DNA of 64,000 bases. Source: Methanoculleus taiwanensis (GTDB lineage Archaea > Halobacteriota > Methanomicrobia > Methanomicrobiales > Methanoculleaceae). Below are positions 5,574 to 41,749 of this stretch, piece after piece. Each line of letters opens with the position of its first letter. Position 1 is the stretch's first letter. The DNA is taken from assembly GCF_004102725.1 (NCBI RefSeq), contig NZ_LHQS01000001.1:601327-665326 (forward strand), written 5' to 3'. The notes below the pieces were generated by a model. The model made no database searches. It saw only the letters and a program-made list of their open reading frames with translations, and had not been told where the DNA came from. The position numbers and the translations under genes were made by a program.

Positions 5574-5969
5574 ATGGTGGATTTTAAAGTAGTTCTCTCC
5601 GACCCGAAATCGGGTCGGTCATACAAAATCGACGCAGCCGGCGCTGTGGCGGGTGCATTCGTCGGGAAGCGTATCGGTGAAGCGATAGACGGCAACGCTC
5701 TCGGTCTTGCGGGCTACACCGTTGAGATCACCGGCGGGACGGACAAGACTGGTATTCCTGCGCGGCGGGACCTTCCCGGCTCGGGACGCAGGAGACTGCT
5801 TCTCTCGGAGAGCACCGGGTTTCATCCCACGTACGACGGCGAACGCCGCCGGAAATCCGTTCGCGGCGGCGAGATCAGCCAGGACTTTGTTCAGGTCAAC
5901 GCCATCGTGAAGACCTACGGCGAAAAATCGCTGCAGGACTACTTCGGACCGAAGGAAGCTGCAGAATAA
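5574..5969 (+). CDS. rps6e: 30S ribosomal protein eS6
   Basis: 131 residues, the archaeal length for eS6 without the phosphorylated eukaryotic tail. Diagnostic stretches are VVLSDPKSGRSYK near the N terminus, a GADKTGIPAR-like loop (here GGTDKTGIPARRD), and the basic RRLLLSESTGF region. The ATG at 5574 is preferred over an in-frame ATG at 5556 because GAAGGAG at 5558-5564 sits at good spacing and the family begins MVDFKVV. It lies directly downstream of aIF5B. Confidence 0.95.
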   Translation: MVDFKVVLSDPKSGRSYKIDAAGAVAGAFVGKRIGEAIDGNALGLAGYTVEITGGTDKTGIPARRDLPGSGRRRLLLSESTGFHPTYDGERRRKSVRGGEISQDFVQVNAIVKTYGEKSLQDYFGPKEAAE

Positions 5970-5970
5970 A

Positions 5971-6441
5971 TCAACTCCTGTTTTTCTTCGATACGCTCGC
6001 GATCAGGGCATCGAGTTTGTCCTCGAACGGGACGGCGTATCGCTTTGCGATCAGCACGACCGCCGCCTCCACGCTGAGGTTGCCGTCGAAGTGATCGGTG
6101 ATGATAGGGTTGAGCTCGGCCACGATCTGGTTCGGCGATCTGCCGGTTGCAGCTGCAATACGGCCGATGAGTTCCTCGTACGGGTTCTCCTGCTCGAATA
6201 TCTCTGAAGTGGGTTTGAACCCGAGCGGGACGGTCACTCCGGCGACGTCAAAGAGCGGTCTGATAAAGCCGCCGTCCACCTCGACAAGCCCGTCGGCCTG
6301 TGCGCGTTCCAGCAGCTGGTTCGCCTGCTCTTTGTTCATCCACTTCCGGTCGATGGCGATATAGAAGATGAACTCGCTCTTCTGCAGCCGGTCTTTGCGC
6401 ATATGCTTGAACGGCGCGGCGACGGCGATTGTCAGGTTCAC
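5971..6441 (-). CDS. DUF2240 family archaeal protein
   Basis: 156 residues from a GTG start. The family opening AVAAPFKH-x-RKDRLQKSEF is present, followed by a helix-rich region (DRKWMNKEQANQLLERA) that looks winged-helix-like. DUF2240 is an archaeal family of unknown function. The GTG overlaps the stop of the upstream gene by four bases (GTGA), so the two genes are translationally coupled; the overlap and the family start both argue against the longer frame to 6519. It is convergent with eS6, with one base between stop codons. Confidence 0.8.
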   Translation of the reverse strand: MNLTIAVAAPFKHMRKDRLQKSEFIFYIAIDRKWMNKEQANQLLERAQADGLVEVDGGFIRPLFDVAGVTVPLGFKPTSEIFEQENPYEELIGRIAAATGRSPNQIVAELNPIITDHFDGNLSVEAAVVLIAKRYAVPFEDKLDALIASVSKKNRS

Positions 6442-6860
6442 TCGCAGGCACCCTTGAGCAGCGTCCGAAGGTTCATTGCGTCCATGCCGCCGTGCTGTCC
6501 CTCTTTTGCTACGAAGCATTCGGTATAGGGCCCCTTATCCACGACTCTGAGCAGAAAGATATTTGCGGAGACGGGAAGACGCCGTTCCGGGGTAAGGAGC
6601 GTCTCCTGCAGGTCGACCCGGAAGTCGGCGGTTTCGGATACGGTCTCCTCGAGCGGCGGCAGGGTGTCCAGGGATACGAACTGCGTCCTGCCGTCCGATA
6701 TCTGGAAGAGTATTCTCCGCTTGAGGAGGCCGCCTTCCTGCCGCTCCGTCGTGTGGGTGTTGTGGAGCCGCTGGAGGCACCGCAGGAGGTCACGGAAGGG
6801 GCGATGCACTTCGAAGTCGAGATCGACGTTCTGGGGGAACCGGTGGTAGACTCTGCGCAT
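6438..6860 (-). CDS. Conserved archaeal protein of unknown function
   Basis: 140 residues, not recognised. It has alternating strand-like and charged stretches, with no signal peptide, membrane segment or metal motif. It overlaps the DUF2240 gene by four bases and is the first gene of that two-gene unit, so the two probably act together. An all-beta fold is possible from the strand-like patches (RILFQISDGRTQFVSL), but this is only a guess. Confidence 0.6.
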   Translation of the reverse strand: MRRVYHRFPQNVDLDFEVHRPFRDLLRCLQRLHNTHTTERQEGGLLKRRILFQISDGRTQFVSLDTLPPLEETVSETADFRVDLQETLLTPERRLPVSANIFLLRVVDKGPYTECFVAKEGQHGGMDAMNLRTLLKGACE

Positions 6861-6971
6861 TGGTACAGTTGAGGATCTGGGAACGTAAAAAGGATATGAT
6901 CTCCGGGAATGAATGCCGAAAGGTTTTCATCCTCTGCGGCAGGTATCCCTCTCGCGCGGGGGATGGTTACC

Positions 6972-8408
6972 ATGGAGCACTTGACGATCATGCAGATGAA
7001 CGACTCCCACGGCTACCTGGAGCTCCACCCGGAACTCTTCAGGGTGGGGAACCGGGCGGAGTACCGGATGGCGGGAGGATATGCACGGATAGGCACGCTT
7101 CTTGCGCAGGTTCGGGAGGAGCGGCGCGGGGAGGTGCTGGCGTTCGACTGCGGGGATACCATCCACGGGACGTACGGGGCTGTCACGACCCGGGGGGAGG
7201 CGCTCGTTCCGATTCTGAACGCTCTTGCCTTCGACGGCATGACCGCTCACTGGGAGTTTGCTTACGGCCCGGAGCGGTTCCGCGAACTCGCAGGAAGGCT
7301 TCGTTATCCGATGCTCGCCGTCAACTGCTACGACGATGCGACCGGCGACCTTGTCTTTCCGCCCTATACCGTCTGCGAGACGAACTCAATGCAGGTCGGC
7401 GTCATCGGCATCGCCGCGACGATCGTCGACAAGACGATGCCGGCATCGTTTTCAAAGGGCATCCACTTCACCCTCGGGAACGAGGAGCTCCCGGGCTACA
7501 TCACCCTGCTCCGCGAGGACGAGGGCGTCGATCTCATCGTGGTCGTCTCGCACCTCGGGTTTCCGCAGGAGATGCAGCTTGCGCGGGAGGTCGACGGGAT
7601 CGACGTGCTGCTCTCCGCCCACACCCATAACCGGCTCTACCGGCCGGCAGTCGTGAACGATACCATCGTCATCCAGTCGGGCTGCCACGGCTCGTTCCTC
7701 GGGAGGCTGGATCTTACGGTGGAGAACCGCCGCGTCACGCACTACGCTCACCGGCTCCTCACCGTCGATCAGGAGATCCGGCCGGATCCGGAGATTGAGG
7801 AGATGGTGAACCGAACGCTCGCCCCCTCCCGCGAGGAACTCGAACGGGTCGTGGGGACGACGGCGACCGCACTCCACCGGACTCTGGTGCTGGAGTCGAC
7901 GATGGACAACCTCCTCCTCCATGCACTGCTTGACGCCACCGGGGCGGAGATGGCCTTCTCGAACGGCTGGCGGTATGGGGCGCCGATCCCGCCCGGGCCG
8001 GTCACCGTCGACGACCTCTGGAACATCATCCCCACGAACCCGCCCGTCTCCACCGTCGAGATTACGGGGCGCGAACTCCTGGCGATGATGGAGGAGAACC
8101 TCGAGCATACCTTCTCCCGCGACCCTTACAATCAGATGGGGGGTTACGTCAAACGGTGCCTCGGGATAACTGTCTACTGCAAGCTTGAAAACCCGCCCGG
8201 CAATCGTATCCAGGAGTTCTTCGTGGGGGGCAGATCGCTTGAGCCCGGCCGGACGTACAGCGCTGCGTTCGTGACGTCGCAGGGCGTGCCCGGGCAGTAC
8301 GGCGAGCATCGCCGGCATCTCGATATGTCTGCAATCGAGGCGCTGGAGCGCTACCTGGCGAAGGGGACTGTCCGGGCGGAGCTTCGCGGGACGGTTACGG
8401 CGATCTGA
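6972..8408 (+). CDS. SoxB-like bifunctional metallophosphatase/5'-nucleotidase
   Basis: About 478 residues. It has the two-domain 5'-nucleotidase layout: an N-terminal calcineurin-like metallophosphatase (NDSHG, FDCGDTIHG, VVSHLGF, SAHTHN) and a C-terminal substrate domain from about residue 300. The usual GNHEFDYG motif is AHWEFAYG here, which recalls the HWEF form I associate with SoxB-type enzymes. No signal peptide is seen. The ATG at 6972 follows a G-run and directly begins the first strand; in-frame ATGs at 6909 and 6963 are alternatives. The DsrE-like gene follows closely. Confidence 0.8.
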   Translation: MEHLTIMQMNDSHGYLELHPELFRVGNRAEYRMAGGYARIGTLLAQVREERRGEVLAFDCGDTIHGTYGAVTTRGEALVPILNALAFDGMTAHWEFAYGPERFRELAGRLRYPMLAVNCYDDATGDLVFPPYTVCETNSMQVGVIGIAATIVDKTMPASFSKGIHFTLGNEELPGYITLLREDEGVDLIVVVSHLGFPQEMQLAREVDGIDVLLSAHTHNRLYRPAVVNDTIVIQSGCHGSFLGRLDLTVENRRVTHYAHRLLTVDQEIRPDPEIEEMVNRTLAPSREELERVVGTTATALHRTLVLESTMDNLLLHALLDATGAEMAFSNGWRYGAPIPPGPVTVDDLWNIIPTNPPVSTVEITGRELLAMMEENLEHTFSRDPYNQMGGYVKRCLGITVYCKLENPPGNRIQEFFVGGRSLEPGRTYSAAFVTSQGVPGQYGEHRRHLDMSAIEALERYLAKGTVRAELRGTVTAI

Positions 8409-8444
8409 TTGGACGATCTAACGGATACCGGGAGTTTTCGCAGC

Positions 8445-8753
8445 ATGACCAAAACGTATCGTGTGGTGCTCCACCTCGACGAGGGCTACCGGGCGACGAC
8501 GACGCTCGTCAATGTCAGGAACCTGCTCGAGGATCTCGGTGTCGATGCCGTAGAGGAGGTGAAGGTTGTCGTGTATGCCGACGGTGTGTACGCCCTGCGG
8601 ACCGGGGATCGGCATGAGGGGGCCGTGCGGTTCGCTCTCTGCAGGGGGGGTCTCGAGACGCACGGGCTTGTGCCCGACGATTTTCGAGGGGCGGGGTTCG
8701 AGCTCGTCTCGTCGGGTGTCGCCGAACTTGTACGGCTCCAGGCCGCAGGGTGA
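8445..8753 (+). CDS. DsrE-family small protein
   Basis: 102 residues with the DsrE/YchN pattern: YRVVLHLDEG strand, N-x-RNLLEDL helix, VVVYADGVYAL strand, then one Cys (C66) in ALCRGGLE and the typical ending VSSGVAELVRLQAAG. DsrE-like proteins carry sulfur on such a cysteine or act as small chaperones. The ATG at 8445 has GGGAG about 12 bases upstream; an in-frame TTG at 8409, directly after the preceding stop, is also possible. The spacing suggests co-transcription with the SoxB-like gene. Confidence 0.7.
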   Translation: MTKTYRVVLHLDEGYRATTTLVNVRNLLEDLGVDAVEEVKVVVYADGVYALRTGDRHEGAVRFALCRGGLETHGLVPDDFRGAGFELVSSGVAELVRLQAAG

Positions 8754-8809
8754 AAGACTGGAAGGTGCCCGGGCTTTTTCCGGGTTTGTTTCCAGAGTCG
8801 AAAAAAATA

Positions 8810-9187
8810 TTACTCGATCAGGACTGCGTTGATAACGCCGTCCTGGCCGGGCCTGCTGACGATACGGGCACGACCGATCTCGGTCTTGATGATTGCGCCC
8901 TTGGTGAGGAGGTTACGCCGAACGTAGTTCGGGTTCGCGCTGTTTGCCTCGACCGTCTGGATCTGGGCCTTCTTGTTCTCACCGGTCGCGGGGTTCGCGA
9001 CGGTTGCGTAGGTTGCACGCAGTGCCCGGACCTTCTGGTTGCCGCCGTAGGTGCGGACGAGTTTTCTGCGGTCCTCGCCGATGTGCGTGTCTGCGGGTGC
9101 TCTTCCGATCTCCGAGCGCCTCTTGCTCTGGGCCGGGCGGTAGCGACCGCCGGTTGCCTTTCGTACTGATCTACCTTGCCACTGCAT
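8810..9187 (-). CDS. rps8e: 30S ribosomal protein eS8
   Basis: 125 residues, matching archaeal eS8. It opens [18 protein letters not shown], has the basic KRRSEIGR stretch, and ends in the conserved [14 protein letters not shown]. The ATG at 9187 is preceded by GGTGG at useful spacing; the longer frame to 9244 has no family support. A TATA-like ATTTATAGC lies near 9255-9264 on the minus strand. The gene stands alone. Confidence 0.95.
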
Positions 9188-28692: not shown

Positions 28693-29432
28693 TCGTCGAG
28701 GTAGCCCATCTCGTCGATATCGATCAGCCCTTTGAGCGCACGGGTGACGACCCAGCGCCCCGCCTCTTTTATCGCCGCCATGGCGTTGGTGCCGCCGACC
28801 ATCGTCACGCCGAGGTACTGCGGGCTGACCGGGACGCCGAGGAGCGGGACGTTCGGGGCGCCGACGTCGAGGATGCCGGAAAACCCGCTGGCGGTGAGTT
28901 CGTCGAGGACGGTTCCGACGAGCGGTTCGGCCTCCATGTGGCATTCGCGCATGTTCGCGAGGATATTCCCGCTGCCGTGCTTCATGACGCTCCGGATGGA
29001 GGTGATGTCCTGGGAGATGAGCACCTCAAGGGGATCGAGCGTCGTGTCCTTGTAGAGGAGCATGCTGATGAACCGGCGCGGTTCGTGCCGGTCGATCTCG
29101 ACCACGCCGCCGCCGATGGGGTTGAGCGGCACGCCGCGCTGGAGCAGCAGGGCGTCGAGGGTGATGCTGCACATGGTGCAGATCGCGTGGGCGTGGTCGG
29201 GGACGGTGTAGTCCCCTATATCTTCGCCGGGCTCCGCGACCCGGATCCGGTCGCTGACCATGAGCCCGGTTCGGTGGGCGTCTTTGAGCATCGCAAGCGC
29301 AAAGGAGAGGTCGTCCTCTTTGATGAGCGAGAGGTTGTAGATGATCTTCCCGGTGTTCTCCTCGGGGTTGTAGGTCACCTGGAGGGCGTACTCCTCGATG
29401 CGGTGGTTGGTGAATTTCAGCGGTTCTTTCAT
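28686..29432 (-). CDS. NrpR regulatory-domain protein without HTH (NrpRII type)
   Basis: 248 residues forming one DUF128/NrpR domain, with the glycine-rich GVVEIDRHEPRRF and VGGTNAMAAIKEAG stretches and a CTMCSITLD motif. Full NrpR nitrogen repressors carry a winged helix first; none is encoded here. This fits the NrpRII type described in Methanosarcina, which works with a separate DNA-binding NrpRI. GAAGGAG precedes the ATG at 29432, deciding the start. It overlaps the end of the TrmB gene by seven bases, tail to tail. Confidence 0.82.
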   Translation of the reverse strand: MKEPLKFTNHRIEEYALQVTYNPEENTGKIIYNLSLIKEDDLSFALAMLKDAHRTGLMVSDRIRVAEPGEDIGDYTVPDHAHAICTMCSITLDALLLQRGVPLNPIGGGVVEIDRHEPRRFISMLLYKDTTLDPLEVLISQDITSIRSVMKHGSGNILANMRECHMEAEPLVGTVLDELTASGFSGILDVGAPNVPLLGVPVSPQYLGVTMVGGTNAMAAIKEAGRWVVTRALKGLIDIDEMGYLDDY

Positions 29433-29842
29433 CGGCACGGCTCCTTCATTGCGCGGGAGAGGGATCTTCCGCAGGGAAGGGTTGTAGTTTATTTTCTTCC
29501 CCGAGGGAAAAAGGGTAGCTGATCGGAGGTGGGGGGTGGATGTGTTCGGGTGCGGGATGGTTGGGGTGGTGGTTGGCCGTTCTTGCAGGGGTCTTCGTCG
29601 CCTGTTCGTCGTTTCTTTGGCGAACGGCTTGGTCACGGGGAGAGGGTATGCTTTTTGTATTGCCACTGCAACATGATACTTTAAGGAAGCGATTTCGGCA
29701 ATGGATGTTCCCACGAAGTAGTTGAAAAAGAAACCATCACATTTTGGAGCCCTACAAAATGGAATGTTGGCTTGATGCGAAAGTCGTAGCAGGCGAATTT
29801 TAAACGAGACCGGAAGCCATCATCTATTGCCTGACAGCCGGG
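29433..29842. promoter_or_regulatory. NrpR-gene promoter and upstream spacer
   Basis: No gene is supported here. On the minus strand an AAAATAAAC box (about 29487-29495) serves the NrpR-domain gene. It is flanked by two dyads, TTCC-N4-GGAA at 29467-29478 and TTCC-N5-GGAA at 29497-29509. On the + strand an ATTTTAAAC box (29797-29805) precedes the interrupted small ORF. The middle is G-rich with no clear signal. Confidence 0.45.
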
Positions 29843-29939
29843 ATGGTGAGAGAAGAGCAGCCGGAGATCGACCTCGAGAAGATGAAGCAGGATATCGTCG
29901 ATAGCGTCTCGAAGGAGATTGCGAGAGATCTGATTGAGG

Positions 29940-30412
29940 TCATCCCATAACTCTCCAGAGCATCATTGCACATGCCAGGTAGATGAGTCCCAAGAATGAG
30001 TATTCATATCGCTCATATCGTGGAACGACCTTCTTAAATGCCTCTATCCAGCTGAAAAATCGTTCAACAGCACTGCGCTTTTTATACAATTCCGGATCAA
30101 ACCAGAATGGCCTTCCCCGCTTGGGATATTTCCTTGATCTTCGATTCACGGGAATATTGCTCCTGATTCTTCGTTCTCGATTGTACTGGCGAATCTCCCG
30201 GGAATCGTAAGCTGCATCTGCCGAGATGATAGTGGGATGATCTTGGACGTCTGGAATCGTGAATGCTTCGAGAGTTGGTTCGTAGAGTCGTGAATCGTGG
30301 ATATTTGCTGGGAAAACGGTGCAGGCGAGGGGAAGACCATTCTGATCGACCAAAGCGCTCAGTTTACTCCCTTTTACTTTCTTATAGCCATCATAACCGG
30401 TCGATCCCCCTT
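29940..30412 (-). CDS. IS5-family transposase, C-terminal frame
   Basis: The DDE catalytic part: ALVDQNGLPLACTVFPANIHDS, then IISADAAYDSREIRQY, and the final RSAVERFFSWIEAFKKV with the catalytic glutamate, ending near LMLWRV-like helices. An ATG-like start within the frame exists at 30353, but the frame runs back to the slippery site near 30412. It is probably made only as a fusion to the N-terminal frame by -1 frameshifting. Confidence 0.82.
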
Positions 30413-30733
30413 TTTTGCTTGAATATCCTTGGTATCCGTCGAACAGTGCCCTAAATCGATTTTCTGAAGGATATAGCCGGCGCGGAGAAGGTCAAGGAAA
30501 ATGTCCTGATAGATGCCGTGCTCAGCAAGATAGAGGTGAAAGCGGTGTACCGTCGATTTCGTGCCGTATTGCCGAGGAACATCGCTCCAGGTACAGCCGG
30601 TGGTCAGGACAAAGAGAATACCGTTGAACATGGCACGATGGTCGGTTCGCGGACGTCCAATATGGGGTTTCTGAGCGGGGAGATGCGGCTCGATGATTGC
30701 CCAGAGATCATCGTCGATTTCCCGGAAGGCCAT
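30374..30733 (-). CDS. IS5-family transposase, N-terminal frame
   Basis: 119 residues with the IS5 opening (DDDLWAIIEPHLPAQKPHIGRPR) and GCTWSDVPRQYG. The frame ends shortly after the slippery sequence A-AAA-AAG (minus strand, about 30407-30413). A -1 shift there joins it to KKGGSTGYDGYKKVKGSKL, the expected IS5 continuation. The first catalytic aspartate lies in the short HCSTDTKDI stretch. Confidence 0.82.
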   Translation of the reverse strand: MAFREIDDDLWAIIEPHLPAQKPHIGRPRTDHRAMFNGILFVLTTGCTWSDVPRQYGTKSTVHRFHLYLAEHGIYQDIFLDLLRAGYILQKIDLGHCSTDTKDIQAKKGDRPVMMAIRK

Positions 30734-30842
30734 ACACCTCGGGTTTTATTCAAGAGGCCTTATAATTATGGGATATCCTCATTGATAAACTGATCAAAAA
30801 AGAGAGCAGCGCTTGATATTAGCGTTCCCAAACGGTAGTGCT

Positions 30843-31601
30843 ATGACAACCAATGACAAACTTGAGAAGTCATTAGGGATACTAGTTGAACCCGCAATTT
30901 TAATTGCGGTGATCACGAGTGGACTCTATTGTATTGCTCGTGTTTATACTGATAGTTATTTTCATCGATTGAGTCTAGATCCTGGTATTCTCTCTTTTTC
31001 ATCTGAGGATTATTTTCAATTTGGGTTCGTTCCGCTCGTTTTAACAATTATTTTAGTGGCAGCTTATATTTTTGTACTAGAGATTCAAGAAAATAGCAGA
31101 ACTATTGTCTTTTTGTCAAACATACCTTTTTTACTATACTACATTGCCGGACTTTTCTTTTTGACCCAAATATCCCTATTTCATTGGAAACCACTTCCAA
31201 TTGCCTTGCTTTTAATTTTCATTGCCTCTTTTGTAGCTTACTTTTACTTTTCAATGATAAGTCAGGCTTTTTTTTCAAATACATGGCAGCAAAGTAATTT
31301 TGGGAAATTAAGGGTGTTGTACATTCTTATTGTACTAGCAATTTTAATTGTTGCTTCGTTTGGTACATTTTATGCGGCTCAGAATGTTGAAGGGAATTTG
31401 CCAAATACTATTGTCATTGGATTCGAGGCGCAAAATGGATCATTCCGACCTCTCCAAGAGTATTCTGAATTTGTCTTAATCTCTTATCACAGCGGAAACT
31501 ATTACGTTACTCCAAGACTGGAACATGCCCCTCCCGATCCAAGAGTATATGTGATACCAGAGAGGGAAGTTGAAATAGTAATCCTAAAATGCCTCAAATA
31601 A
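30843..31601 (+). CDS. Orphan AT-rich membrane protein
   Basis: 252 residues, family not recognised. About five hydrophobic helices cover residues 15-190 (PAILIAVITSGLYCIA, LVLTIILVAAYIFVL, IPFLLYYIAGLFFL, PIALLLIFIASFVAYFYF, VLYILIVLAILIVASF), followed by a soluble tail of about 65 residues that may face outward. Base composition is far more AT-rich than the genes before 29 kb, suggesting transfer. It lies just right of the insertion sequence and is convergent with the KAP gene. Confidence 0.6.
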   Translation: MTTNDKLEKSLGILVEPAILIAVITSGLYCIARVYTDSYFHRLSLDPGILSFSSEDYFQFGFVPLVLTIILVAAYIFVLEIQENSRTIVFLSNIPFLLYYIAGLFFLTQISLFHWKPLPIALLLIFIASFVAYFYFSMISQAFFSNTWQQSNFGKLRVLYILIVLAILIVASFGTFYAAQNVEGNLPNTIVIGFEAQNGSFRPLQEYSEFVLISYHSGNYYVTPRLEHAPPDPRVYVIPEREVEIVILKCLK

Positions 31602-31641
31602 CAATCGGAAAGCAAATTCCTGCATCCACTTCAGTTGCAGC

Positions 31642-31836
31642 TTAATCTCCCGTTTCACCCAGACCGCGTAGACCGGCACCCCCCACACCCAGCACTGCAG
31701 CACAGACCGCCGGGTACCATGTCGGGCCGGAGAGGCAGTACTGCCCGATGGCCATCGAGACCGCCGGGATGCCGAGCCCCGGGACGAGGATGGAGACCCA
31801 GAGCTTTCGGGTGATGGTTATCTGCCGGTCCGTCAC
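31642..31836 (-). CDS. Small membrane protein of a locally repeated family (copy A)
   Basis: 64 residues from a GTG start. A basic N terminus (TDRQITITRKLW) is followed by two hydrophobic stretches. Related starts occur at 37148 (intact, shorter), 37979 (truncated) and 34581 (stop at codon four), all with the same upstream leader. GC-rich, unlike its AT-rich neighbours. It has no canonical SD; the leader reads CCGCCGCAATCCTCC in the coding direction. Confidence 0.45.
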   Translation of the reverse strand: MTDRQITITRKLWVSILVPGLGIPAVSMAIGQYCLSGPTWYPAVCAAVLGVGGAGLRGLGETGD

Positions 31837-31885
31837 GATGGAGGATTGCGGCGGAGAGGGGAAATGGGTTGTGGATTGGTTTGGA
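31642..31885. repeat. Dispersed leader-plus-small-ORF repeat, copy A
   Basis: First of four related segments in the accessory region. The shared part on the + strand reads CACGATGGAGGATTGCGGCG, then GAGGGGAAA. Here it joins the intact 64-residue ORF. It lies between the orphan membrane protein and the KAP gene. Confidence 0.7.
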
Positions 31886-31947
31886 AGTTAAGATTGAATT
31901 ATTAATTGAATGTATCTATTTGCATATATGCTAAATAGTGATATTCC

Positions 31948-34491
31948 TCAGCTTCCCGGTCCCTCGGTAATGATGATGTAATCTATGACACGGATATCCA
32001 TCTCTAAACATTCTACCTCAATATCATACCGATTTGAAGCAAGCCCCGAAATATCGAATAAGCATTCCCATTGATTGTTCTCTCCGCCTTCTTTAACTTT
32101 GACAGTTGCTGTCATGCCAGAGAATCTGTTACGCTGTTTTTTCAAATGAGGGGAATAATCCATGTTTTGTACTTTTACAAGAAGCTCTGTGCCAATGGCT
32201 AAATTTGTCTCTCCCCTCAATGTTACTATGCTCATTTGACTCTTATCTACCCTTTTGTCCTCAAATTGATCAATTGAAAGCCAGGGTTTTTCCACAATAA
32301 AAGTTAGTTTTGTATAAATATCGCTACACTGGGGGCTTGTTAGGAAATCAATCAAAGCAAGAGCAGATCCTTTTGGGTCATTATTTAAAATCTGATGCGA
32401 ATCCGTTGGATCATATCGAGATTTTATGTACCCGGATTCTTCAAAGACATCCGGTTCTGAGTTCGTGTTTGGATGTTGAATTATAACAAAATAAGTACCC
32501 GGATTCATTGCACGTGTTTTCGCACCACCTAGAGTGTATTGGTATTCGCCACTAGATCTAACGCCAACTGGGTCTCTGATTGCACAATATGGTCCAAATG
32601 TCCATACGTAGATTTGAGAAGGGTTGCCTTCAGCGGTACCAGTTATCCTTATTGCATTTCCCTGCGCTACTGCTGATGCACTAAGTGAACCTGTAATATA
32701 GGGGACTCTTATAACCAACGATTGTGTAGAATAAGTAGGACGCTTTTGATAATCGACATGGAGCTGCTCTTTATCATATGGCTGGGAAACAGCATAGATT
32801 GTGTAAGTTCCTCCCGTTAGATGTTTGGCGATGGTGGATGTTTCCCACTTATATTCCCAAGTCTGATCATTACCCACAGGAATTCTAGTGAAAGTATCCT
32901 CATTGCCGTGAATTACAGGGTCAGTTAAGTTTTCAAGGCTTGTTCCTGCCGGCGGAAGATTTGGTCCAATAATAAACAGATATAGAGTGTTACTTGCCGT
33001 GCACGTGCCTGTAATTGATAATTCTTCTCCGGTAAACGCTACACCAGTTCCGGAAATGGTTATGGTGAGGCTCATGTACGTGTTCTCTTCTGTGCCATTG
33101 CCGCTTTGCTTGTCGCTTTTTGGTGAAGAAAAGTTCTCAGATGCTACCGTACTTAGAAAAATGCATTTTCCAAGATTGAAGTCTGTGAAAATCTTATCAC
33201 CGGTTCGCAAAATCAGTTGGGTCTTGCCATCGCTCTTGAAACTATTAAATAGTGTATGGATATTTTCTGGCAATCTGGACAACACATCTGCATCCTTGCC
33301 TTCAGCTTCTCTTGCATACTCTTGCAAATATAGGAGGAGGTCGAAATTTGATTTTATTTCGCGTACGAATGGCTCTGAGTAAAAGTTCAGAAGAACCCAC
33401 TTTATTAGTATTTCTTTTTCGATGCCATTCCCAAGAGCAGACATTAAGCTTAAAGTATTGAAAAACCGCTTGATTTCTCTTGGGTTGCTATCCAGTCCAT
33501 TTACAATTAATTCTTCATATTCTTGAATTAATTCTCCAACCAACAACTCTTTTTCAATAAAATCCTTAACGCCTTGCCTTGATATTGCGGGGAGATTGAA
33601 TTCTAATTGAATCATTTTTTTAATATATTCTCTTCCTGAAAAACTGTGACCACCTTCAAGCCCAAGCTGTTTATAACGTGAATCTACCGCCCTTGATATC
33701 AGGTTGATGTCCATTCCTAGAACAAAAACACACCCTTTTTGGTCGAAAAATAAATTTATCGATTCTAAAATGTTTGTGACCACGCCTGGGGGACACCGAT
33801 CAAGGTCGTCAATAAATATTACGAGAACACCATCGCGGTCGTCAAAATCACCGTCATCGTATTCTTCACCACAGATGTATCGCCTTAGAACACATCGTAA
33901 ATATCTGCTAAACTCATTGTAAAAAGAGGGATTTTCTTTATATATCGGCTTCTTGACCCATTTTTCATAGTTAGGGCTGAGTCCTGAAAGGGATCCCATT
34001 CCGCTGAAAATTCCGATAGCGGATAGTGAAGTACTGACAAAGTCTTGGATTACCACTTCGGTTCTAACGCGATCCGTGTCTATGAGTTCGTGGATCCATC
34101 TTTCCGTTTTCTTAAAGAAATCTCCTGTCTCAAGTCGGTCGCAATTATTTGAAAGTTGCTCATGAATTTCAAGTGATAATGCGGCGAGAAGTACGTCGGT
34201 TTCGGGATATTTCCATGCGTTAAACCATACTGTTCTGATTTTCCTGTAATCATCGTCGCCTTTTTTACATCTATTAATCAACTCTTCACGGAGGGTTTTC
34301 ATCAGCGAGGTTTTCCCAGTTCCCCATCGTCCATTTACTGCTATAGAGAAAGGAGTTTCATTATCTTTATTCAGTATGATTTCCGAAATTCCCTCGATAT
34401 ATCTTTCAAAATTAAAGTGTTTTGCTCCTTTTGTGGGGCTATCTGAATACATATTGATATTTGACACAGTACGGTCGCGGTTTTGATTCAT
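31948..34491 (-). CDS. KAP-family P-loop NTPase fused to S-layer-type domains
   Basis: 847 residues. The KAP NTPase fills about 25-460: Walker A GRWGTGKTS (54-62), FNAWKY (90-95), one hydrophobic insert near 150-170, Walker B LVIFIDDLDRC (223-233), and NPREIKRFFN (335-344). After a Ser/Gly/Glu linker (about 453-470) come three beta domains. The first two have SITGTCTASNTLYLFIIGPN-type strands, and the last (about 750-845) reads like the closing domain of Methanoculleus-type S-layer proteins (LRGETNLAIGTELLVKV). No signal peptide. AT-rich. An ATG at 34452 is an alternative start. Confidence 0.85.
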   Translation of the reverse strand: MNQNRDRTVSNINMYSDSPTKGAKHFNFERYIEGISEIILNKDNETPFSIAVNGRWGTGKTSLMKTLREELINRCKKGDDDYRKIRTVWFNAWKYPETDVLLAALSLEIHEQLSNNCDRLETGDFFKKTERWIHELIDTDRVRTEVVIQDFVSTSLSAIGIFSGMGSLSGLSPNYEKWVKKPIYKENPSFYNEFSRYLRCVLRRYICGEEYDDGDFDDRDGVLVIFIDDLDRCPPGVVTNILESINLFFDQKGCVFVLGMDINLISRAVDSRYKQLGLEGGHSFSGREYIKKMIQLEFNLPAISRQGVKDFIEKELLVGELIQEYEELIVNGLDSNPREIKRFFNTLSLMSALGNGIEKEILIKWVLLNFYSEPFVREIKSNFDLLLYLQEYAREAEGKDADVLSRLPENIHTLFNSFKSDGKTQLILRTGDKIFTDFNLGKCIFLSTVASENFSSPKSDKQSGNGTEENTYMSLTITISGTGVAFTGEELSITGTCTASNTLYLFIIGPNLPPAGTSLENLTDPVIHGNEDTFTRIPVGNDQTWEYKWETSTIAKHLTGGTYTIYAVSQPYDKEQLHVDYQKRPTYSTQSLVIRVPYITGSLSASAVAQGNAIRITGTAEGNPSQIYVWTFGPYCAIRDPVGVRSSGEYQYTLGGAKTRAMNPGTYFVIIQHPNTNSEPDVFEESGYIKSRYDPTDSHQILNNDPKGSALALIDFLTSPQCSDIYTKLTFIVEKPWLSIDQFEDKRVDKSQMSIVTLRGETNLAIGTELLVKVQNMDYSPHLKKQRNRFSGMTATVKVKEGGENNQWECLFDISGLASNRYDIEVECLEMDIRVIDYIIITEGPGS

Positions 34492-34544
34492 TTTGCGTCA
34501 CATCCAACGTAGTTTGATGCCTATGGTTGAAAGTCAGACCCTCG

Positions 34545-34625
34545 GGGTAATGCCGGTTACCTCCCGGCTCTAGTCTGTCACGATGGAGGATTGCGGCGGG
34601 GAGGGGAAAAGGATTGCTAAAAGAA
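34545..34625. repeat. Dispersed repeat, copy B (ORF destroyed)
   Basis: The leader CACGATGGAGGATTGCGGCG is intact at 34579 onward, but the small ORF stops at its fourth codon (GTG ACA GAC TAG on the minus strand). It lies in the 138-base gap between the KAP gene and the restriction endonuclease. Confidence 0.7.
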
Positions 34626-34629
34626 TCTC

Positions 34630-35940
34630 TTACCCGGTTTGGAACTCTATGTTGTCGCAGATCCAGTGGAGCCAGCGTTTCACGGTCGAAGCTCTCCTTC
34701 CTACCGTCTGGCCGGATAGTGTGGTGTTCTCACGGATGACTTCTGCAATGTGGTTTTTGTCCAGCCTGTCAAGGTTACAATCCCGTTGAATCAGATCCCG
34801 CATCAGGACATTGAAGGTCGGCTTTGCCAGAATCTGCTTCAGCAACAGCAAGTTTCTCTGGGTCCGGTTGCTGCAACGGCGCAACTCCTCCCCAAGGGGA
34901 GTGAGATCAAACCTCTTCTCCTCGTCATCGTCACGCTTCAGAAAGCCGAGATAAATTGCAGCGTTAGCATAATAATCGCCTTGCCGTTCATCAAACTCGA
35001 AAGAAAGGGCGATGAGATCTTTTGTATTGAGGTTGTCATCAAACCGGGTCACAATGTCTATGACTTTGTCAAGGTCGTTTGCCTGTGGATACGGAACGTC
35101 GTGAGGCTCGCTGTCGGCGACCGAGAGGGTTCTGATCAACTCGTTGAGATTGAGCATCTGCTTGAGGGGTTCGTTAATGACGAAACCCCGGCACTTTACA
35201 ACCTGTAACTCGCCAAAGGCATCCCCAAACTTGAACTCCGTTAGATAAAAGATTCCGTTTGTATAGATAACAAACAGTGGGATAACTTCTTTATCCGTTC
35301 TGATCGACCAATCCCGATACGGGTAGTAGAGCTGCCGGATGTGGAAATCATCCCGCTTCCCGATCTTCGTTTCCAGGACATAGACCTTGTCCGGGCTCTC
35401 AAAGCCGGCGTCCACCTCGATCTGCACACCCGAGACACTGACACAGTGATCGCAGTTTGGGAGATGGAAATCAAACTCGTTTGAACGCAGTCTTCCACGA
35501 ATCGTCAGAAATAACTCTGATTCACCTGTGAATGTCTTAATCAGGGATATGAGATAGGCGTAGTCGATAGCCTGCGATTCGCTTGAGATCGTGCCTAGCT
35601 GGAGCGTTTTAAAGTTATGAATATCGGGTTTTGGGACGTATTCGGTAATGAGAACATCATCCAGTGACGATTCATACGAATAGTAACTTTTCAGGCTGTT
35701 ATCTTTGAAAATAATGTATCGGCCATTATCAACGGGGAAGATTGAAAGGTCATGCTGCTTAAAGATAGCCGGCCGCGAACTCTGGGTATCCTGCTTTGCC
35801 ATCAGACGAGGTTCGCGGCGATCACCACTGTTCCCTTTGAGCTCATCGGCCGTGATGTAGACAAAACCCTTACTATTTATTTGTTCGAGAAGATTGAGGT
35901 TTTCAAAGACGCTCTTCCAAGCCTCATCGTTTTTTCCCAT
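34630..35940 (-). CDS. Restriction endonuclease-like protein (PD-(D/E)XK), paired with Dam
   Basis: 436 residues. A PD-(D/E)XK core is visible: an EVDAGF strand with D177, then VLETKIG with E190 and K192, followed by Q203-x-x-Y. The C-terminal part (about 300-430) looks winged-helix-like and may read DNA. The ATG overlaps the stop of the upstream methyltransferase (TAATG), so both are made together as a type II restriction-modification pair. The recognition site is not shown by the sequence; GATC is possible from the partner. AT-rich, horizontally acquired. Confidence 0.75.
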   Translation of the reverse strand: MGKNDEAWKSVFENLNLLEQINSKGFVYITADELKGNSGDRREPRLMAKQDTQSSRPAIFKQHDLSIFPVDNGRYIIFKDNSLKSYYSYESSLDDVLITEYVPKPDIHNFKTLQLGTISSESQAIDYAYLISLIKTFTGESELFLTIRGRLRSNEFDFHLPNCDHCVSVSGVQIEVDAGFESPDKVYVLETKIGKRDDFHIRQLYYPYRDWSIRTDKEVIPLFVIYTNGIFYLTEFKFGDAFGELQVVKCRGFVINEPLKQMLNLNELIRTLSVADSEPHDVPYPQANDLDKVIDIVTRFDDNLNTKDLIALSFEFDERQGDYYANAAIYLGFLKRDDDEEKRFDLTPLGEELRRCSNRTQRNLLLLKQILAKPTFNVLMRDLIQRDCNLDRLDKNHIAEVIRENTTLSGQTVGRRASTVKRWLHWICDNIEFQTG

Positions 35941-36884
35941 TAGAACACCGAAAGGTCGTTTCTTTCGGTTTTGTAATTTGTAATTATTAATTCATTGATT
36001 TCGCCCCGTCGCTCTCCGTTACAGTTTATTGCACGGCGGGCGGAGACCCGATCGATGGTATACTCCGGATAGAGGTCTTCAAAGAAGTGATCATTCGGAT
36101 CTTCATTTTTCGGATCCGAGTTGCTCAGCATCAACTTTGCCCCTTTTGCGTCAAGTTCGTGGAAGAATCCGGCGAGGCGTTTCTGGTCTTCGTCTCCGAA
36201 TCTGTCTTTGGAGTATGAGGTAAAACTTGATGTCTGGTTCAGTGGCCGGTATGGCGGGTCAAAGTAAACGAACGTCTTTTCATCAACGTACCGAGCACAG
36301 TCTGAAAAATCACCGAGATGGATGCTTGTGTTTTCGAGGAGAGCAGAATCGTTCCGCAATATTTCCTGATTCAGTATCTGGGGCTTTTTATGTCGACCAA
36401 AGGGAACGTTGAACTCGCCCTTTGAGTTGACCCGGAACAAACCGTTGAAGCAGGTCTTGTTCAGGAAGATGAGATCTGCTGCTCTCCGGATCCATGCTTT
36501 GTTGTACTTCTGCGGCTGAATCGAGGTTTTGAACTCATTATACTTGTTGCGGATTTCGTAGAAGTACTCCTGCCGTTTTTCGGTATCCAGCTGCAGGTAT
36601 GTGGTTTCTACGTCCTTTAGGATCTCAATGAGTTCCTCAACATCATGCTTGACAACAGTATACGCGAGTACGAGCTCTTCATTTACGTCAAAAATGTGGC
36701 ATTCGTCAAACTGGTATTGATTATTGATATAGAAGTATACGGCTCCCCCGCCCACAAATGGTTCGACATATGTATTGGTAAGGCCTTTTCTCACCTCTTC
36801 CGGGAGTCTAATCTCAAATTCCTTGAGTAATTGGCCTTTTCCACCAGCCCACTTCAAAAAAGGCTTGGCATTCTGAGTTTTCAT
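35940..36884 (-). CDS. Dam/DpnM-type DNA adenine-N6 methyltransferase
   Basis: 314 residues, class alpha (D12) layout. The SAM motif is FLKWAGGKGQLL (9-20), EPFVGGGAVYF follows at 41-51, CFNGLFRVNSKGEFNVPFG covers about 145-163, and the catalytic DPPY is 209-212. It methylates adenine in DNA and would protect the host from the coupled endonuclease. DpnM-like relatives act on GATC, but target specificity here is an inference. It is the first gene of the two-gene unit. Confidence 0.92.
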   Translation of the reverse strand: MKTQNAKPFLKWAGGKGQLLKEFEIRLPEEVRKGLTNTYVEPFVGGGAVYFYINNQYQFDECHIFDVNEELVLAYTVVKHDVEELIEILKDVETTYLQLDTEKRQEYFYEIRNKYNEFKTSIQPQKYNKAWIRRAADLIFLNKTCFNGLFRVNSKGEFNVPFGRHKKPQILNQEILRNDSALLENTSIHLGDFSDCARYVDEKTFVYFDPPYRPLNQTSSFTSYSKDRFGDEDQKRLAGFFHELDAKGAKLMLSNSDPKNEDPNDHFFEDLYPEYTIDRVSARRAINCNGERRGEINELIITNYKTERNDLSVF

Positions 36885-37028
36885 CCTGTTGAACCTCTGT
36901 AAGAACTCTAAGTAATTGGCACTGAATATTATCGACCGGGCTATTTGAATGTACGTTGGGCGGTCTGAAACAAAAAAGAATGCGAAAATCTCACGGTGAA
37001 ATTATCCCTAAAAGACAGGCTAAGACGC

Positions 37029-37148
37029 TCAAAAGACTCCGTTGATCGGCACCCCCACGACCAGTACCACGACCACCGGCAGGCCGAACCCGACGATCAG
37101 GACGGAGCGCCATACCCTCCGGGTGACGGGTACCCGCCGGTCTGCCAC
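37029..37148 (-). CDS. Small membrane protein of the repeated family (copy C, 39 aa)
   Basis: A GTG-started frame of 39 residues: basic N terminus (VADRRVPVTRRVWRS) then one hydrophobic helix (VLIVGFGLPVVVVLVVGVPI). It aligns with the first 35 residues of the 64-residue copy A, and both share the upstream leader. That the frame survives despite sequence divergence hints at selection, but it is too short to be sure. Confidence 0.4.
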   Translation of the reverse strand: MADRRVPVTRRVWRSVLIVGFGLPVVVVLVVGVPINGVF

Positions 37149-37192
37149 GAGAGAGGATTGCGGCGGGGAAGGGAAAAGAGTTGCTCATCCGG
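37029..37192. repeat. Dispersed repeat, copy C
   Basis: Shares the leader (here CACGAGAGAGGATTGCGGCG, then GAAGGGAAA) and the 5' part of the small ORF with copies A, B and D. It lies between the Dam gene and the 37348 gene. Confidence 0.7.
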
Positions 37193-37347
37193 CATCCGTG
37201 CTCGGCCTGACTGCCGTCCGGGCTCATCTCAAAAAAGAACATTGATGAGCATATCTGATGACCATACTATAAGCAGATCAGCTTTATGTCAGCAGGTCAA
37301 CTTTACAGGGGACTGCCGGGTATGCCTGTTTTTGCTGGAGTGATGGC

Positions 37348-37833
37348 GTGGAAGAGGAGCATGTCCGGCTTTTGGATTCGGTATTCGTCGGAGCCACCAT
37401 CGAAGATGCCTGGGACGAGGATGGCGTCCGGGGGCTTGTGATTGATACCATCCGGGGAGAGACGGTTCGCGTCTGGGCGGAAAACCTCTGCATGACGCAC
37501 CTGAAGAAAGTGCCGGTATCGCTGGTATCGGTCGGTGATGAGGGGAGAGAAACTTCGATTGCCTGGAGTTCCCTGCAGGGGGCAATCATTCTTGGCAGCA
37601 CGTATTGCTGTACGCCCCGGCTTGACCTATTCACCGATGTAGCAATCCGGGAAATGCGTATCCTGGCTGTGGATGGGACTGTGCAGACCATCAGAGCCCG
37701 GTGGGAGTGCGGCGGGTTGCAGTGCCCGGACACCGCAAAAGATCTGGACGTTGATGTGTTTATCTGCCAAAAAGGTCGGGAAGCTCGTCTTGTTTTTTGT
37801 CGGGATGATCTCCTCTCCCCTGTACAGGAGTAG
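37348..37833 (+). CDS. Hypothetical protein
   Basis: 161 residues from a GTG start, with GGAGTGA about five bases upstream. Not recognised. It is strand-rich with eight cysteines (including YCC, CGGLQC and FCRDD contexts) and no membrane segment or signal. GC content is back near the chromosomal level. A TATA-like box 80 bases upstream suggests its own promoter. It sits alone between repeat copies C and D. Confidence 0.55.
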   Translation: MEEEHVRLLDSVFVGATIEDAWDEDGVRGLVIDTIRGETVRVWAENLCMTHLKKVPVSLVSVGDEGRETSIAWSSLQGAIILGSTYCCTPRLDLFTDVAIREMRILAVDGTVQTIRARWECGGLQCPDTAKDLDVDVFICQKGREARLVFCRDDLLSPVQE

Positions 37834-38363
37834 GGGAGAGGATCTGCCTCACCTCTTAACTCTTCACGAATCCGTTTTTACTTCCTGATACTACTTCTCA
37901 AACTTCCGGTTCACCCGGCACCCCGGCGACCGGGACAGAGCCGGAGCTTTTGGGTGGTGGGTATCCGCCGGCCCGTCACGACGGAGGATTATGGCCGGGA
38001 TAGTAAAAGAAGTGCTAAACGAAGCCGTATCGAATGTGAGCAAAAACCGTACTGGCATGCCCGCCCTCTCCCGCAGCAGTCTCCCGGACTTCTTCACCGG
38101 CGGTATATCCGGAGCTCCCGGGAGGTGAACCCGAATCCATATCCTGCGCGTCTCCGGCGAGCCCTCTCCCGTTCCCCTCCCGGACCGGGCAATCCCGGCA
38201 TAAATGATTCAGTAATGTTCATATGATGCCTTTTTTCACATTCAGCGAACGCCCCGAACCTTTTTAACCCCCATCTCCCCACGCTGAAACAAGCGGTGCA
38301 CGACAACGGCTTACTCCCCCGGAGGACGCCGGTGCATCGCGAAAAACAACAGAGAGGCAACGC
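37834..38363. other. Intergenic region with repeat copy D and cassette promoter
   Basis: 530 bases without a supported gene. Copy D of the repeat lies at 37911-38022. A CTTTTTAAC box at about 38258-38266 would serve the replication cassette that starts at 38364. The long minus-strand frame across 38094-38675 lacks family support. Confidence 0.5.
37911..38022. repeat. Dispersed repeat, copy D (ORF truncated to 22 codons)
   Basis: The leader is diverged (CACGACGGAGGATTATGGCC) and the small ORF, starting GTG at 37979 on the minus strand, stops after 22 codons (VTGRRIPTTQKLR then a non-hydrophobic end). The most decayed copy apart from B. Confidence 0.6.
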
Positions 38364-38744
38364 ATGAAACCGAAACCCATACCCATGGACGATACCGGAG
38401 CCCCCGGAGAGCAGCGGGGCACCTCTGTCCTGAAAGAATCGAGAAGAGAAGACGAAGTAATCTGCGGCGGCAGCCAGGCACAACCAATTGTTTCCAGCAC
38501 TCGGATGCACCGGACCGCCAATGGTACTCGGCACTGCAACAATATAAGCATCGCCACCCCGGGAGATGCACCGCAGAAGGTGCCGCTCTACCTCATCGCC
38601 CACGCGGTCGCGGCCGAGGTAGTCCGGCACAAACGGAGACTGCGCGAGATCCACGTCACCTGCACGGCAGGGCACTACTACGCTATCACCACGGTGGCCG
38701 GAAAGGAGGCAGGGTCCTCCCCCACCCCGGAGGTGGCGGAATGA
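38364..38744 (+). CDS. Hypothetical protein upstream of primase-helicase
   Basis: 126 residues, not recognised. The first 70 residues are polar and look disordered; the last 55 (LYLIAHAVAAEVVRHKRRLREIHVTC) form a helix-strand unit. GAGAGG precedes the ATG. Its stop overlaps the primase-helicase start by four bases (ATGA), so it belongs to the replication cassette and is probably an accessory or regulator. Confidence 0.65.
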   Translation: MKPKPIPMDDTGAPGEQRGTSVLKESRREDEVICGGSQAQPIVSSTRMHRTANGTRHCNNISIATPGDAPQKVPLYLIAHAVAAEVVRHKRRLREIHVTCTAGHYYAITTVAGKEAGSSPTPEVAE

Positions 38745-41680
38745 GCGACGCTATCCGCCGTGCGGTGGAGGTGCTCGCCCCGGGCGGCGTTGTGGAGGTG
38801 CGGGCGCTCGCGGAGAGTGCCGTTCACTCCGGCTACTTCGACGACCGCACGGAGCTCGCCGGCCGGGCAGCGGTGCTCGATGCCGACCCGGAGGTTGCCG
38901 GGATCTACGTCACCTTAAACCCCGTCAACCCGGCGCTCCTCGCCCGACGGGCGAACCGGATCAAGCTGCGCCTTACGAAGAAAGACGCGACGACGGCCGA
39001 TACCGATATCGTGAGACGCCGGTGGCTCCCGGTCGACATCGACCCGGTGCGCCCGAGCGGGGTCTCGTCCACCACTGCGGAGCACGACCTCGCCCTCGCG
39101 ACGGCGGAGAAGATCGCCGCCTGGCTCAGCGAGCAGGGCTTCCCGGCGCCGGTTGCGGCCGACTCCGGGAACGGCGCCCACCTCCTCTACCGTATCGATC
39201 TTCCGAACGACGAGGCGGCGACCGGACTCGTGAAGGGCTGCCTCGCGACCCTCGACGCGCTCTTCTCGAACGAGAAGGTCACCGTCGACACCGCGAACTA
39301 CAACGCCGCCCGAATCTGGAAGCTCTACGGCACGGTCTCCCGGAAGGGCGATTCCACCCCCGAGCGGCCGCACCGGCGGGCGAAGTTCCTCGCGGTTCCT
39401 GACGAGATCGCAGTGGTTCCGGTGGAACGGCTACGGCACCTCGCCGGACTGCTCCCGAAAGAAGAGCCGGCGGCGCCGAAGAAGGGCGCCGGCATCGACC
39501 TCGCCGCCTGGCTCGCAGGCCACAAGATCGCCGTCCGGTCTGCAAAACCCTACCGGGGCGGGACGCTCTACGTCCTTGAGGACTGCCCGTTCTCGGCGGC
39601 GCACAAGGACGGTGCGTTCGCGATCCAGTTTGCGAACGGTGCGATCTTCGCCGGGTGCCACCACCAGAGCTGCGGCGGCGGGCGGCAGCGCTGGCCGGAG
39701 CTCCGGGCACAGTTCGAGAAGCCGAAGCAGAAGAAACCACGGGGCGGGGAGCTCTCCTCTCCTCCCGTCCCTGCACCGGAGCAGGACGAGTACCGGGAAA
39801 AGGCGCTCGCCGTCCTGAAAGAGGGCGACCCGCTCGGGTTCCTGCTCGACACCTTCCACCGGGAGCACGTCGGCGATGCCGCAGTGGCGAAATGCCTCAT
39901 CATGTCGCTCGCCTCGCAGTCGATCGCAAACACCAGAGGCCTGCACGTCGCCATCTCCGGCAAGTCCGGCAAGGGCAAAACGCACGCCTGCGCGGCGATG
40001 CTCGCGCAGGTGCCGGAGCAGTACCGCCTCGCCGGCACGGTCAGCGACAAGGCGCTCTACTACAACAACCGATTGTGCCCCGGCACGGTCTTCCTCTTCG
40101 ACGACGTGTCGCTCTCCGACGACCTGCAGGAACTCCTGAAGGCGGCCACCGCGAACTTCAGGGAACGGATCGAGCACCAGACCGTAACCACCGACCGGCA
40201 ACTCCGGATCTGCACCATCCCGGAACGGTGCGTCTGGTGGCTTGCGAAGGTCGAGAATATCGGCGACGACCAGGTGGCGAACCGGATGCTGACGGTCTGG
40301 ATCGACGACTCCGCGGAGCAGGATCGGGCGGTGCTCGAACACCTCAAGGTGAGCGAGGCACGGGCTCCCGGGGCGGTGGCGGTGGCGGAGGAGGTGCACG
40401 TCTGCCGGGCGATCTGGACGCTCCTCAAGGAGCGGCTCGTTCACGTCATCATCCCGTTCGCGACCCGTATCCAGTTCTCGAACGCCGCGAACCGCAGAAA
40501 CCCCGGTATCCTCTTCGACCTCATTAAATGTCACGCCCTGCTCCGGTGCCTGCAGCGCGAGCAGGTGCCGTCGGCTTCGGGGGATCTCTGCATTCTCGCG
40601 ACCCGGGAAGATTTCAAGGCCGCGGCCGACCTCTACGCCTCTCTCAACGGGGTGACCGGTGGGCAGGAGACGAAACTCACCAGGAACGAGGCGGCCGCCC
40701 TCATGACGGTCGTGGCGATGGGCGCCCCTGTCTTCACCATCAAGCAGCTCCAGCAGGCGATGGGACTCACCTACTACCAGACCCGGCGTATCATGAACGG
40801 CTACGTCAACCGGGGCACCACCTACGCAGGGCTGCTTGAGAAGTGCCCGGCGGTCAGCTGCGTCGACGCCACGGTGACGGAGGACGGCTGCGGCACCACG
40901 GTCCGGCGGCGGGAGCACCATTACTTCTTCGACGTCGCGTTGTATCGAAACTGGAGCGCCGGGGCTGCGGTCTGGATCGATGAGGACGGCGATGAGGATG
41001 GTGACGACGATGACGGGTACACCATGGCAGCAGATGTACATCGTATGTACACCGCGTGGTGCCACCCTCAAAAAGGCGAAAACGGGGAGGGATCTGGTGA
41101 TACTCTTCATAATAGTACAAAAAGCGTTTCTCATAGTACTGATGTACACCAGGATCGGAGGGCACAGTCCAAGCAGCGTGCTCTCTCCCCTCACACTGCA
41201 TGTGTCTGTGCTTTGGAGAATGGTGTACATGTCGGGGCGAAAACGGCTTTTGAGTCTCGAATCAGTGCCGTTCCTCAGGAATCGCCTTCGCTCGGTGACA
41301 CCACGCGGTGTACACCGGTACACCCGGGCACCTCGCCGCTGTACATGGTGTACCCGACCGACTACATCCCGCTCCCGGTGCCGAAAAACGAGCCCTGCCA
41401 CGTCTGCGGCAGCAGGCCGACGTCGTCGGTGCTGCGGGGGAAGGAGCAGTACCTCTGCTATGCCTGCCTGAAGAAGGCGAAGACGCCGGCGAAAGTCCTG
41501 CCCCTGCCCGGCCTGCTCGACCACCGGACGTTCGAACGGGCGGGCGTCGATCTCGGGCGGTGCACGATCTGCGATTCGGAGAAGGCGGTCTACCGCTCCC
41601 GGGAGGCGCAGGCGAATGTCTGTGAGGGATGTTATGCACGGCTTGTGCGGGAGTGGAACCGGGAGGCGGGGGTGCGGTGA
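38741..41680 (+). CDS. Primase-helicase replication protein of an integrated element
   Basis: 979 residues. The N-terminal part looks like an archaeo-eukaryotic primase: VDIDPVRPSG near 99-108, then SGNGAHLLYRI near 143-153. A Cys/His zinc knuckle follows (CPFSAAHKDG...CHHQSC, about 282-311). The ATPase part has Walker A SGKSGKGKTH (about 405-414) and Walker B VFLFDDVS (about 449). A winged helix lies near 660-700. A polar, acidic linker (about 745-870) leads to two C-terminal zinc ribbons (CHVC...CYAC and CTIC...CEGC). Such proteins copy plasmids and viruses. No integrase is adjacent. Confidence 0.82.
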   Translation: MSDAIRRAVEVLAPGGVVEVRALAESAVHSGYFDDRTELAGRAAVLDADPEVAGIYVTLNPVNPALLARRANRIKLRLTKKDATTADTDIVRRRWLPVDIDPVRPSGVSSTTAEHDLALATAEKIAAWLSEQGFPAPVAADSGNGAHLLYRIDLPNDEAATGLVKGCLATLDALFSNEKVTVDTANYNAARIWKLYGTVSRKGDSTPERPHRRAKFLAVPDEIAVVPVERLRHLAGLLPKEEPAAPKKGAGIDLAAWLAGHKIAVRSAKPYRGGTLYVLEDCPFSAAHKDGAFAIQFANGAIFAGCHHQSCGGGRQRWPELRAQFEKPKQKKPRGGELSSPPVPAPEQDEYREKALAVLKEGDPLGFLLDTFHREHVGDAAVAKCLIMSLASQSIANTRGLHVAISGKSGKGKTHACAAMLAQVPEQYRLAGTVSDKALYYNNRLCPGTVFLFDDVSLSDDLQELLKAATANFRERIEHQTVTTDRQLRICTIPERCVWWLAKVENIGDDQVANRMLTVWIDDSAEQDRAVLEHLKVSEARAPGAVAVAEEVHVCRAIWTLLKERLVHVIIPFATRIQFSNAANRRNPGILFDLIKCHALLRCLQREQVPSASGDLCILATREDFKAAADLYASLNGVTGGQETKLTRNEAAALMTVVAMGAPVFTIKQLQQAMGLTYYQTRRIMNGYVNRGTTYAGLLEKCPAVSCVDATVTEDGCGTTVRRREHHYFFDVALYRNWSAGAAVWIDEDGDEDGDDDDGYTMAADVHRMYTAWCHPQKGENGEGSGDTLHNSTKSVSHSTDVHQDRRAQSKQRALSPHTACVCALENGVHVGAKTAFESRISAVPQESPSLGDTTRCTPVHPGTSPLYMVYPTDYIPLPVPKNEPCHVCGSRPTSSVLRGKEQYLCYACLKKAKTPAKVLPLPGLLDHRTFERAGVDLGRCTICDSEKAVYRSREAQANVCEGCYARLVREWNREAGVR
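41017..41353. repeat. Cluster of TGTACA/GGTGTACACC motifs inside the primase-helicase gene
   Basis: TGTACA occurs at 41035, 41046, 41143, 41224, 41309 and 41340, with TGTACC at 41349 and GGTACACC at 41017 (partial) and 41317. The fullest form is the palindrome GGTGTACACC at 41307-41316. The cluster coincides with the low-complexity linker of the protein. It may be an iteron array and origin for the element. Confidence 0.55.
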
Positions 41681-41749
41681 TCCCCGTCAACCCACCTCCC
41701 GGAGACGCATGGAAAAATAGTTCTACCATATAACGACAATGTACGGTAG

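Follow-up and report, generated by a model that had tools for sequence, protein, structure and literature searches.

A family-restricted repeat unit at the module boundaries of defence-type islands in Methanoculleaceae

How defence genes enter genomic hot spots without an integrase is in general unsolved. The hot-spot model of Oliveira et al. (2017; PMC5635113) implies fixed core-gene borders and rapid cargo turnover with no site integrase, and core defence hot spots, for example those of Pseudomonas aeruginosa, hold mostly defence genes that are strain-specific and placed between conserved genes (PMC10250203). In an accessory island of the archaeon listed as Methanoculleus taiwanensis, one short repeat unit recurs between the cargo modules. 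Here, we addressed what this unit is, how tightly it is bound to cargo and by which process its arrays may have been built. The window, i.e., the whole stretch of DNA analysed, comprises 64,000 nucleotides; compared genomes and loci are designated by our G and L numbers.

The unit and its four copies in the window

The whole inserted island (29430..41740, assigned to no strand) is bordered by NrpR-like and PepSY-domain genes, which in Methanoculleus are neighbours, mostly about 200 bp apart, with no copy of the unit between them. Its cargo comprises a membrane protein gene (30813..31601, plus strand, GC 0.36) with no Pfam, PADLOC or PHROGs match; a KAP-family P-loop NTPase gene (31948..34491, minus strand; PF07693, 8.5e-35; PADLOC PDC-S20, 9.8e-32, and QatA, 1.6e-27); the genes of a type II restriction enzyme (34630..35940, minus strand; PADLOC REase_II, 4e-59; DUF6997/DUF7226/DUF6996) and of a D12-class DNA adenine methyltransferase (35940..36884, minus strand; PF02086, 1.1e-59), the latter with a 78% identical protein at the same locus of the sister species G001; and a 161-aa ORF (37348..37833, plus strand) with no family match in Pfam, PADLOC or PHROGs. 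This cargo had been described as AT-rich, which holds up to 36884 (GC 0.36–0.48) and fails for the 37348 gene (0.57) and for the replication-like cassette (0.62–0.66). The latter, GC-rich and located at the right end of the island (38364-41680), encodes proteins of 126 and 979 aa, the larger having only a weak PHROGs match (2.7e-5), and is absent at the G001 locus. An IS4/5-type transposase, split over two ORFs (29936-30773), shares 80% identity with a copy in the island between the cofD-like and HD-domain genes of G024 (L058 5673-6510).

The full unit is about 250 bp long and consists of a leader of about 40 bp followed by a GTG-start ORF, which runs for about 70 codons to its stop and contains two hydrophobic stretches (two-helix, 2-TM). 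Scores of a profile built from the copies confirmed the positions of the four leader-plus-ORF copies proposed in the first-pass annotation, all on the minus strand and one in each of the four gaps that it had named between cargo modules. Copy 1 (31630..31878, read 31878-31630; 241.7 bits) is nearly full length, begins 70 bp beyond the 3′ end of the KAP gene and is 85% identical to copies of the second island described below; its ORF of 64 codons opens with GTG (31836-31642) and bears a frame shift near the C-terminus. Copy 2 (34527..34624, read 34624-34527; 63.8 bits) begins 6 bp past the 3′ end of the restriction enzyme gene and retains the leader, 97.7% identical over 43 nt to that of second-island copy 4264, and the first codons with a stop at codon four. 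Internal deletions left 39 codons in copy 3 (37029..37190, read 37190-37029; 127.7 bits), upstream of the restriction-modification (RM) pair, and 22 codons in copy 4 (37885..38022, read 38022-37885), which separates the 37348 gene from the replication-like cassette; the 75.9 bits of copy 4 cover 38022-37920, its 3′ end at 37921-37885 being weak. The earlier descriptions of all four ORFs were accordingly correct, while the GC content of the copies, formerly given as rich like that of the host, is corrected to 0.55–0.64. Since first-order Markov versions of the window, 2.56 Mb in total, gave a top score of 10.7 bits, window copies scoring 63.8–241.7 bits are far above chance. Compared with its three partners, the 44-nt leader agrees at 40, 36 and 31 of 44 positions; the next-best site of the window reaches 27. 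Copy 4 is abutted by the remnant of a segment, here called X (38022..38084, minus strand), 81% identical over 63 bp to X of the second island (L013 12331-12392).

Distribution, position and junctions of the copies

Nine copies are present in the genome (2.75 Mb, 12 contigs), and all nine belong to two cargo islands, C1:630-643k with the four of the window (C1:632962-639336) and C2:963-979k (L013) with five (C2:965266-977264). A sequence-only profile search covering 61 genomes returned no further copy above chance level in this genome, so that the copies are bound to cargo and are not frequent across the chromosome. Their strand is uniform in every multi-copy island: 4/4 in the window, 5/5 in C2 and 2/2 each in L057, L067 and G001. 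The second island also encodes two paralogous STAND-like proteins with TPR arrays of the TPR_12 type (L013 6268-10980 and 13285-16116), strongly different in length (1570 vs 943 aa) and having relatives in only one other genome among the 199 searched in the order.

Beyond this genome, the unit is restricted to the family, namely to Methanoculleus and the genus of the window, with a clear copy in about sixteen other family genomes searched and one to three copies in each. Matches in other families of the order were weak (E about 1e-2 to 1e-5) and are regarded as chance; neither the 84,980 species genomes nor the viral contigs searched with the protein profile gave a relative, a search with the leader pattern gave only Methanoculleus-type records and chance hits, and a plasmid search gave no match to the unit. 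In relatives the copy is mostly single and lies in the gap between cofD-like and HD-domain genes, always oriented from cofD to HD; exceptions are G023, where a pair encloses an AAA/TPR gene (L067), L057 with an additional 3′ fragment, and G001 with its degenerate pair. Related genomes carry differing defence-type cargo between these same core genes, as judged by family matches, which qualifies the gap as a defence hot spot: type II RM (L060/L061), PD-Lambda-1 (L058), a TPR protein (L054), Mrr-type nuclease (L059-L061), a methyltransferase (L055) and AT-rich genes without known family. Copies thus flank different cargo in sister species, RM, STAND/TPR and PD-Lambda-1 varying at this gap. Where the gap is empty it measures 45-48 bp and holds no copy (L142, L146, L147, L149, L152); in the genome of the window it measures 203 bp, likewise with no copy (L090). 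Because the empty sites, both cofD-HD and NrpR-PepSY, contain none, the copies arrived together with cargo instead of preceding it as landing sites. The version of the earlier proposal that placed a copy in the locus beforehand is not supported, an empty locus without a copy being the outcome that the proposal itself had named as refuting. The feature is real, lineage-restricted and part of defence-type islands. As a separate observation, the divergent gap of Methanoculleus (L054-L062, L068-L071, L142-L149) also accommodates several AT-rich gene pairs without Pfam or PADLOC family, e.g., L056 10305-12279 and L057 8397-9829.

Within islands, the copies keep a preferred position behind cargo genes. 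For 11 of the 17 copies, the unit starts 0-70 bp 3′ of the stop of a same-strand cargo gene, overlaps that gene or is fused with it, against 2.7 expected for random intergenic positions (P about 5e-5, a guide only, for the pattern was noticed before testing and paralogues occur among the 17 cases). Besides the 70 and 6 bp behind the KAP and restriction enzyme genes, spacings of 61 and 44 bp follow TPR1 and TPR2, and a copy at L013 5878, lying 48 bp after an 85-codon ORF, makes a twelfth case. In G012, a 1068-aa TPR protein with an apparent P-loop ends in the unit, which forms its C-terminal tail in frame.

Comparison of junctions provides a view on how cargo and copies were combined. In C2, a block in which a STAND/TPR gene is accompanied by a full copy and trailed by a fragment of one is duplicated (L013 12810-16022 vs 5783-9038, 75%); the duplication begins at least 100 bp upstream of the copy, therefore the copy was not its edge. 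Segment X, directly adjoining copy 4 in the window, is separated from the copy in C2 by about 500 bp with a small ORF, and its homology runs only up to the 5′ boundary of the copy. L057 contains a 316-codon (1.1-kb) AT-rich cargo gene between its copy and the cofD-side segment, where L058 has 20 bp. These two fixed points suggest that cargo may be gained or lost at the end of the copy. At the locus of the window in G001, a degenerate copy stands on either side of the methyltransferase gene, and the restriction gene breaks off after about 12 codons, where a copy leader is joined to it. The four junction cases fit cargo gain and loss at copies, none of them amounting to a dated event for which one species shows both states.

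In the sole transfer young enough for mapping, the crossovers lie elsewhere. Methanoculleus NL_3.1 and M. chikugoensis share an island of 6.2 kb, which carries an RM system and an Mrr-type gene, without a single mismatch (L060:7817-14010 vs L061), and because the core flanks are only about 88% identical, this is a very recent transfer; its crossovers map no further than about 90 bp from the starts of the cofD and HD genes and not in the copy. Among the junctions compared, no crossover inside a copy was seen directly. The placement of a copy facing an Mrr gene in C2 and in L060/L061 was considered as proof of a moved block and discarded, the link being absent from the intervening sequence. Independently of this case, cofD-HD cargo of L068 (8784-10222) is 97-99% identical to that of L071 within flanks of about 91%, suggesting another recent transfer.

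Coding status of the reading frame and rival explanations

Stops, frame shifts or deletions affect most copies, and near-full-length ORFs are confined to one copy of the second island (C2 966919-967128; L013 5920-6132) and to the G012 fusion. Mismatch rates at codon positions 1, 2 and 3 are flat within the genome (0.288, 0.249, 0.271), dN/dS equals 0.9-1.8 among its own copies (up to 1.82) and 0.56-0.68 against G012, and neither measure revealed purifying selection on the ORF, for which no Pfam family was found. Among Methanoculleus copies the rates are 0.364, 0.286 and 0.388, and the slightly conserved second position suggests an older coding past. Judged from the sequences, the ORF looks like a scar and not a working gene, no longer maintained as a protein; the original idea of a small-gene remnant is supported. 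Retention of a functional gene for a small membrane protein at each boundary would agree with the two near-full-length frames and with the lower second-position rate (0.286 vs 0.36-0.39), but most copies are broken, dN/dS spans 0.56-1.82 and the codon pattern is neutral with no Pfam family behind it, which renders such a gene quite improbable.

The main rival assumes decay as well. It treats the unit as a passenger pseudogene that once served STAND/TPR-type defence NTPases as their membrane-anchoring tail or as a partner gene, was co-duplicated with them and is decaying with no role in recombination. The in-frame tail of the G012 protein, the copy or fragment that follows each of TPR1, TPR2, the AAA/TPR gene of L067 and KAP, and the flat codon-position rates all fit such an origin, whereas copies also stand behind restriction enzymes, a methyltransferase and a RidA-type gene, and cargo is present or absent right at the copy 5′ end at two fixed points; we regard it as possible without leaning towards it. 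Dispersal as a tiny non-autonomous, MITE-like transposable unit is hard to credit in spite of defined 5′ and 3′ ends and occurrence at several loci: terminal inverted repeats or target duplications were not seen by eye in aligned copies and flanks, orientation is fixed within islands, and across the 61 genomes no above-chance copy was found outside islands except the G023 pair, itself placed around cargo. With 9/9 copies of the genome confined to two cargo islands, the suggestion of a tiny mobile unit was dropped. An integron-like cassette array, in which each cargo gene would carry a 3′ site for a site-specific recombinase, gains from the one-site-per-gene arrangement, the common orientation and the 3′ position (11/17). 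Nevertheless, the unit resembles an ORF and exceeds the usual length of attC sites, and its folding is no more stable than that of shuffled sequences (z of -0.18, -0.46 and 0.28 for DNA and 0.40 for RNA), giving no attC-like hairpin. No integrase was found beside the islands, the only two tyrosine recombinases of the genome (PF00589; C2:396k and C2:573k) being distant from both. Integron cassette arrays, including archaeal ones (PMC9668308), likewise have one repeat 3′ of each gene in a same-strand array, while here there is neither IntI nearby nor a folded attC-like site and the repeat is ORF-derived; the integron reading is scarcely credible and was rejected.

A proposed origin by homologous recombination

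Our preferred reading, to which we give an even chance, is that a decayed small gene behind cargo was multiplied and rejoined by homologous recombination in accessory, mainly defence, islands of Methanoculleaceae. An ancestral small gene with fixed ends would have sat directly behind cargo genes, been multiplied together with them by homologous recombination and then decayed. Arrays, restriction to islands, orientation and 3′ position are observed, and from the copies being direct repeats we infer the recombination step: exchange between copies would lead to tandem duplication or deletion, and a single crossover could add a DNA molecule bearing cargo and a copy. The outcome would be cargo-copy-cargo-copy arrays on one strand with one copy per module boundary, and whole islands may also pass between species by crossover at flanking core genes. 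The present copies, being 44-250 bp long and 60-90% identical, are poor recombination substrates today by reason of their shortness and divergence. Of the initial interpretation, the small-gene remnant and the link to cargo were borne out, and the mobile unit and pre-existing landing site were not. The proposal of a joint by which cargo is swapped stays plausible, favoured by differing cargo at copies and by the two fixed points and opposed by the L060/L061 crossovers, which map to core genes. A bolder version, unlikely in our estimation, would be an integrase-free cassette system, where defence genes each travel with a 3′ unit of about 250 bp, and where recombination between homologous units would pile these genes up in same-strand arrays and carry them from one island or species to another.

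Fixed core borders, cargo turnover, the lack of an integrase and the L060/L061 crossovers at the borders agree with the model of Oliveira et al. (PMC5635113), which has no counterpart to the repeat unit found here at each module boundary. The variation of defence genes between conserved genes is likewise shared with core defence hot spots (PMC10250203), compared with which the islands described here are archaeal and have a family-specific direct repeat between their modules. That homologous recombination feeds hot spots is already known; the new element is this repeat at their module boundaries. Copies probably mark the sites at which ordinary DNA recombination joined defence genes or duplicated them. 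A direct repeat at each boundary serves as a marker for junctions, by which sister strains could tell internal-repeat from core-gene exchange, and the cofD-HD gap of Methanoculleus could be mined for new defence systems.
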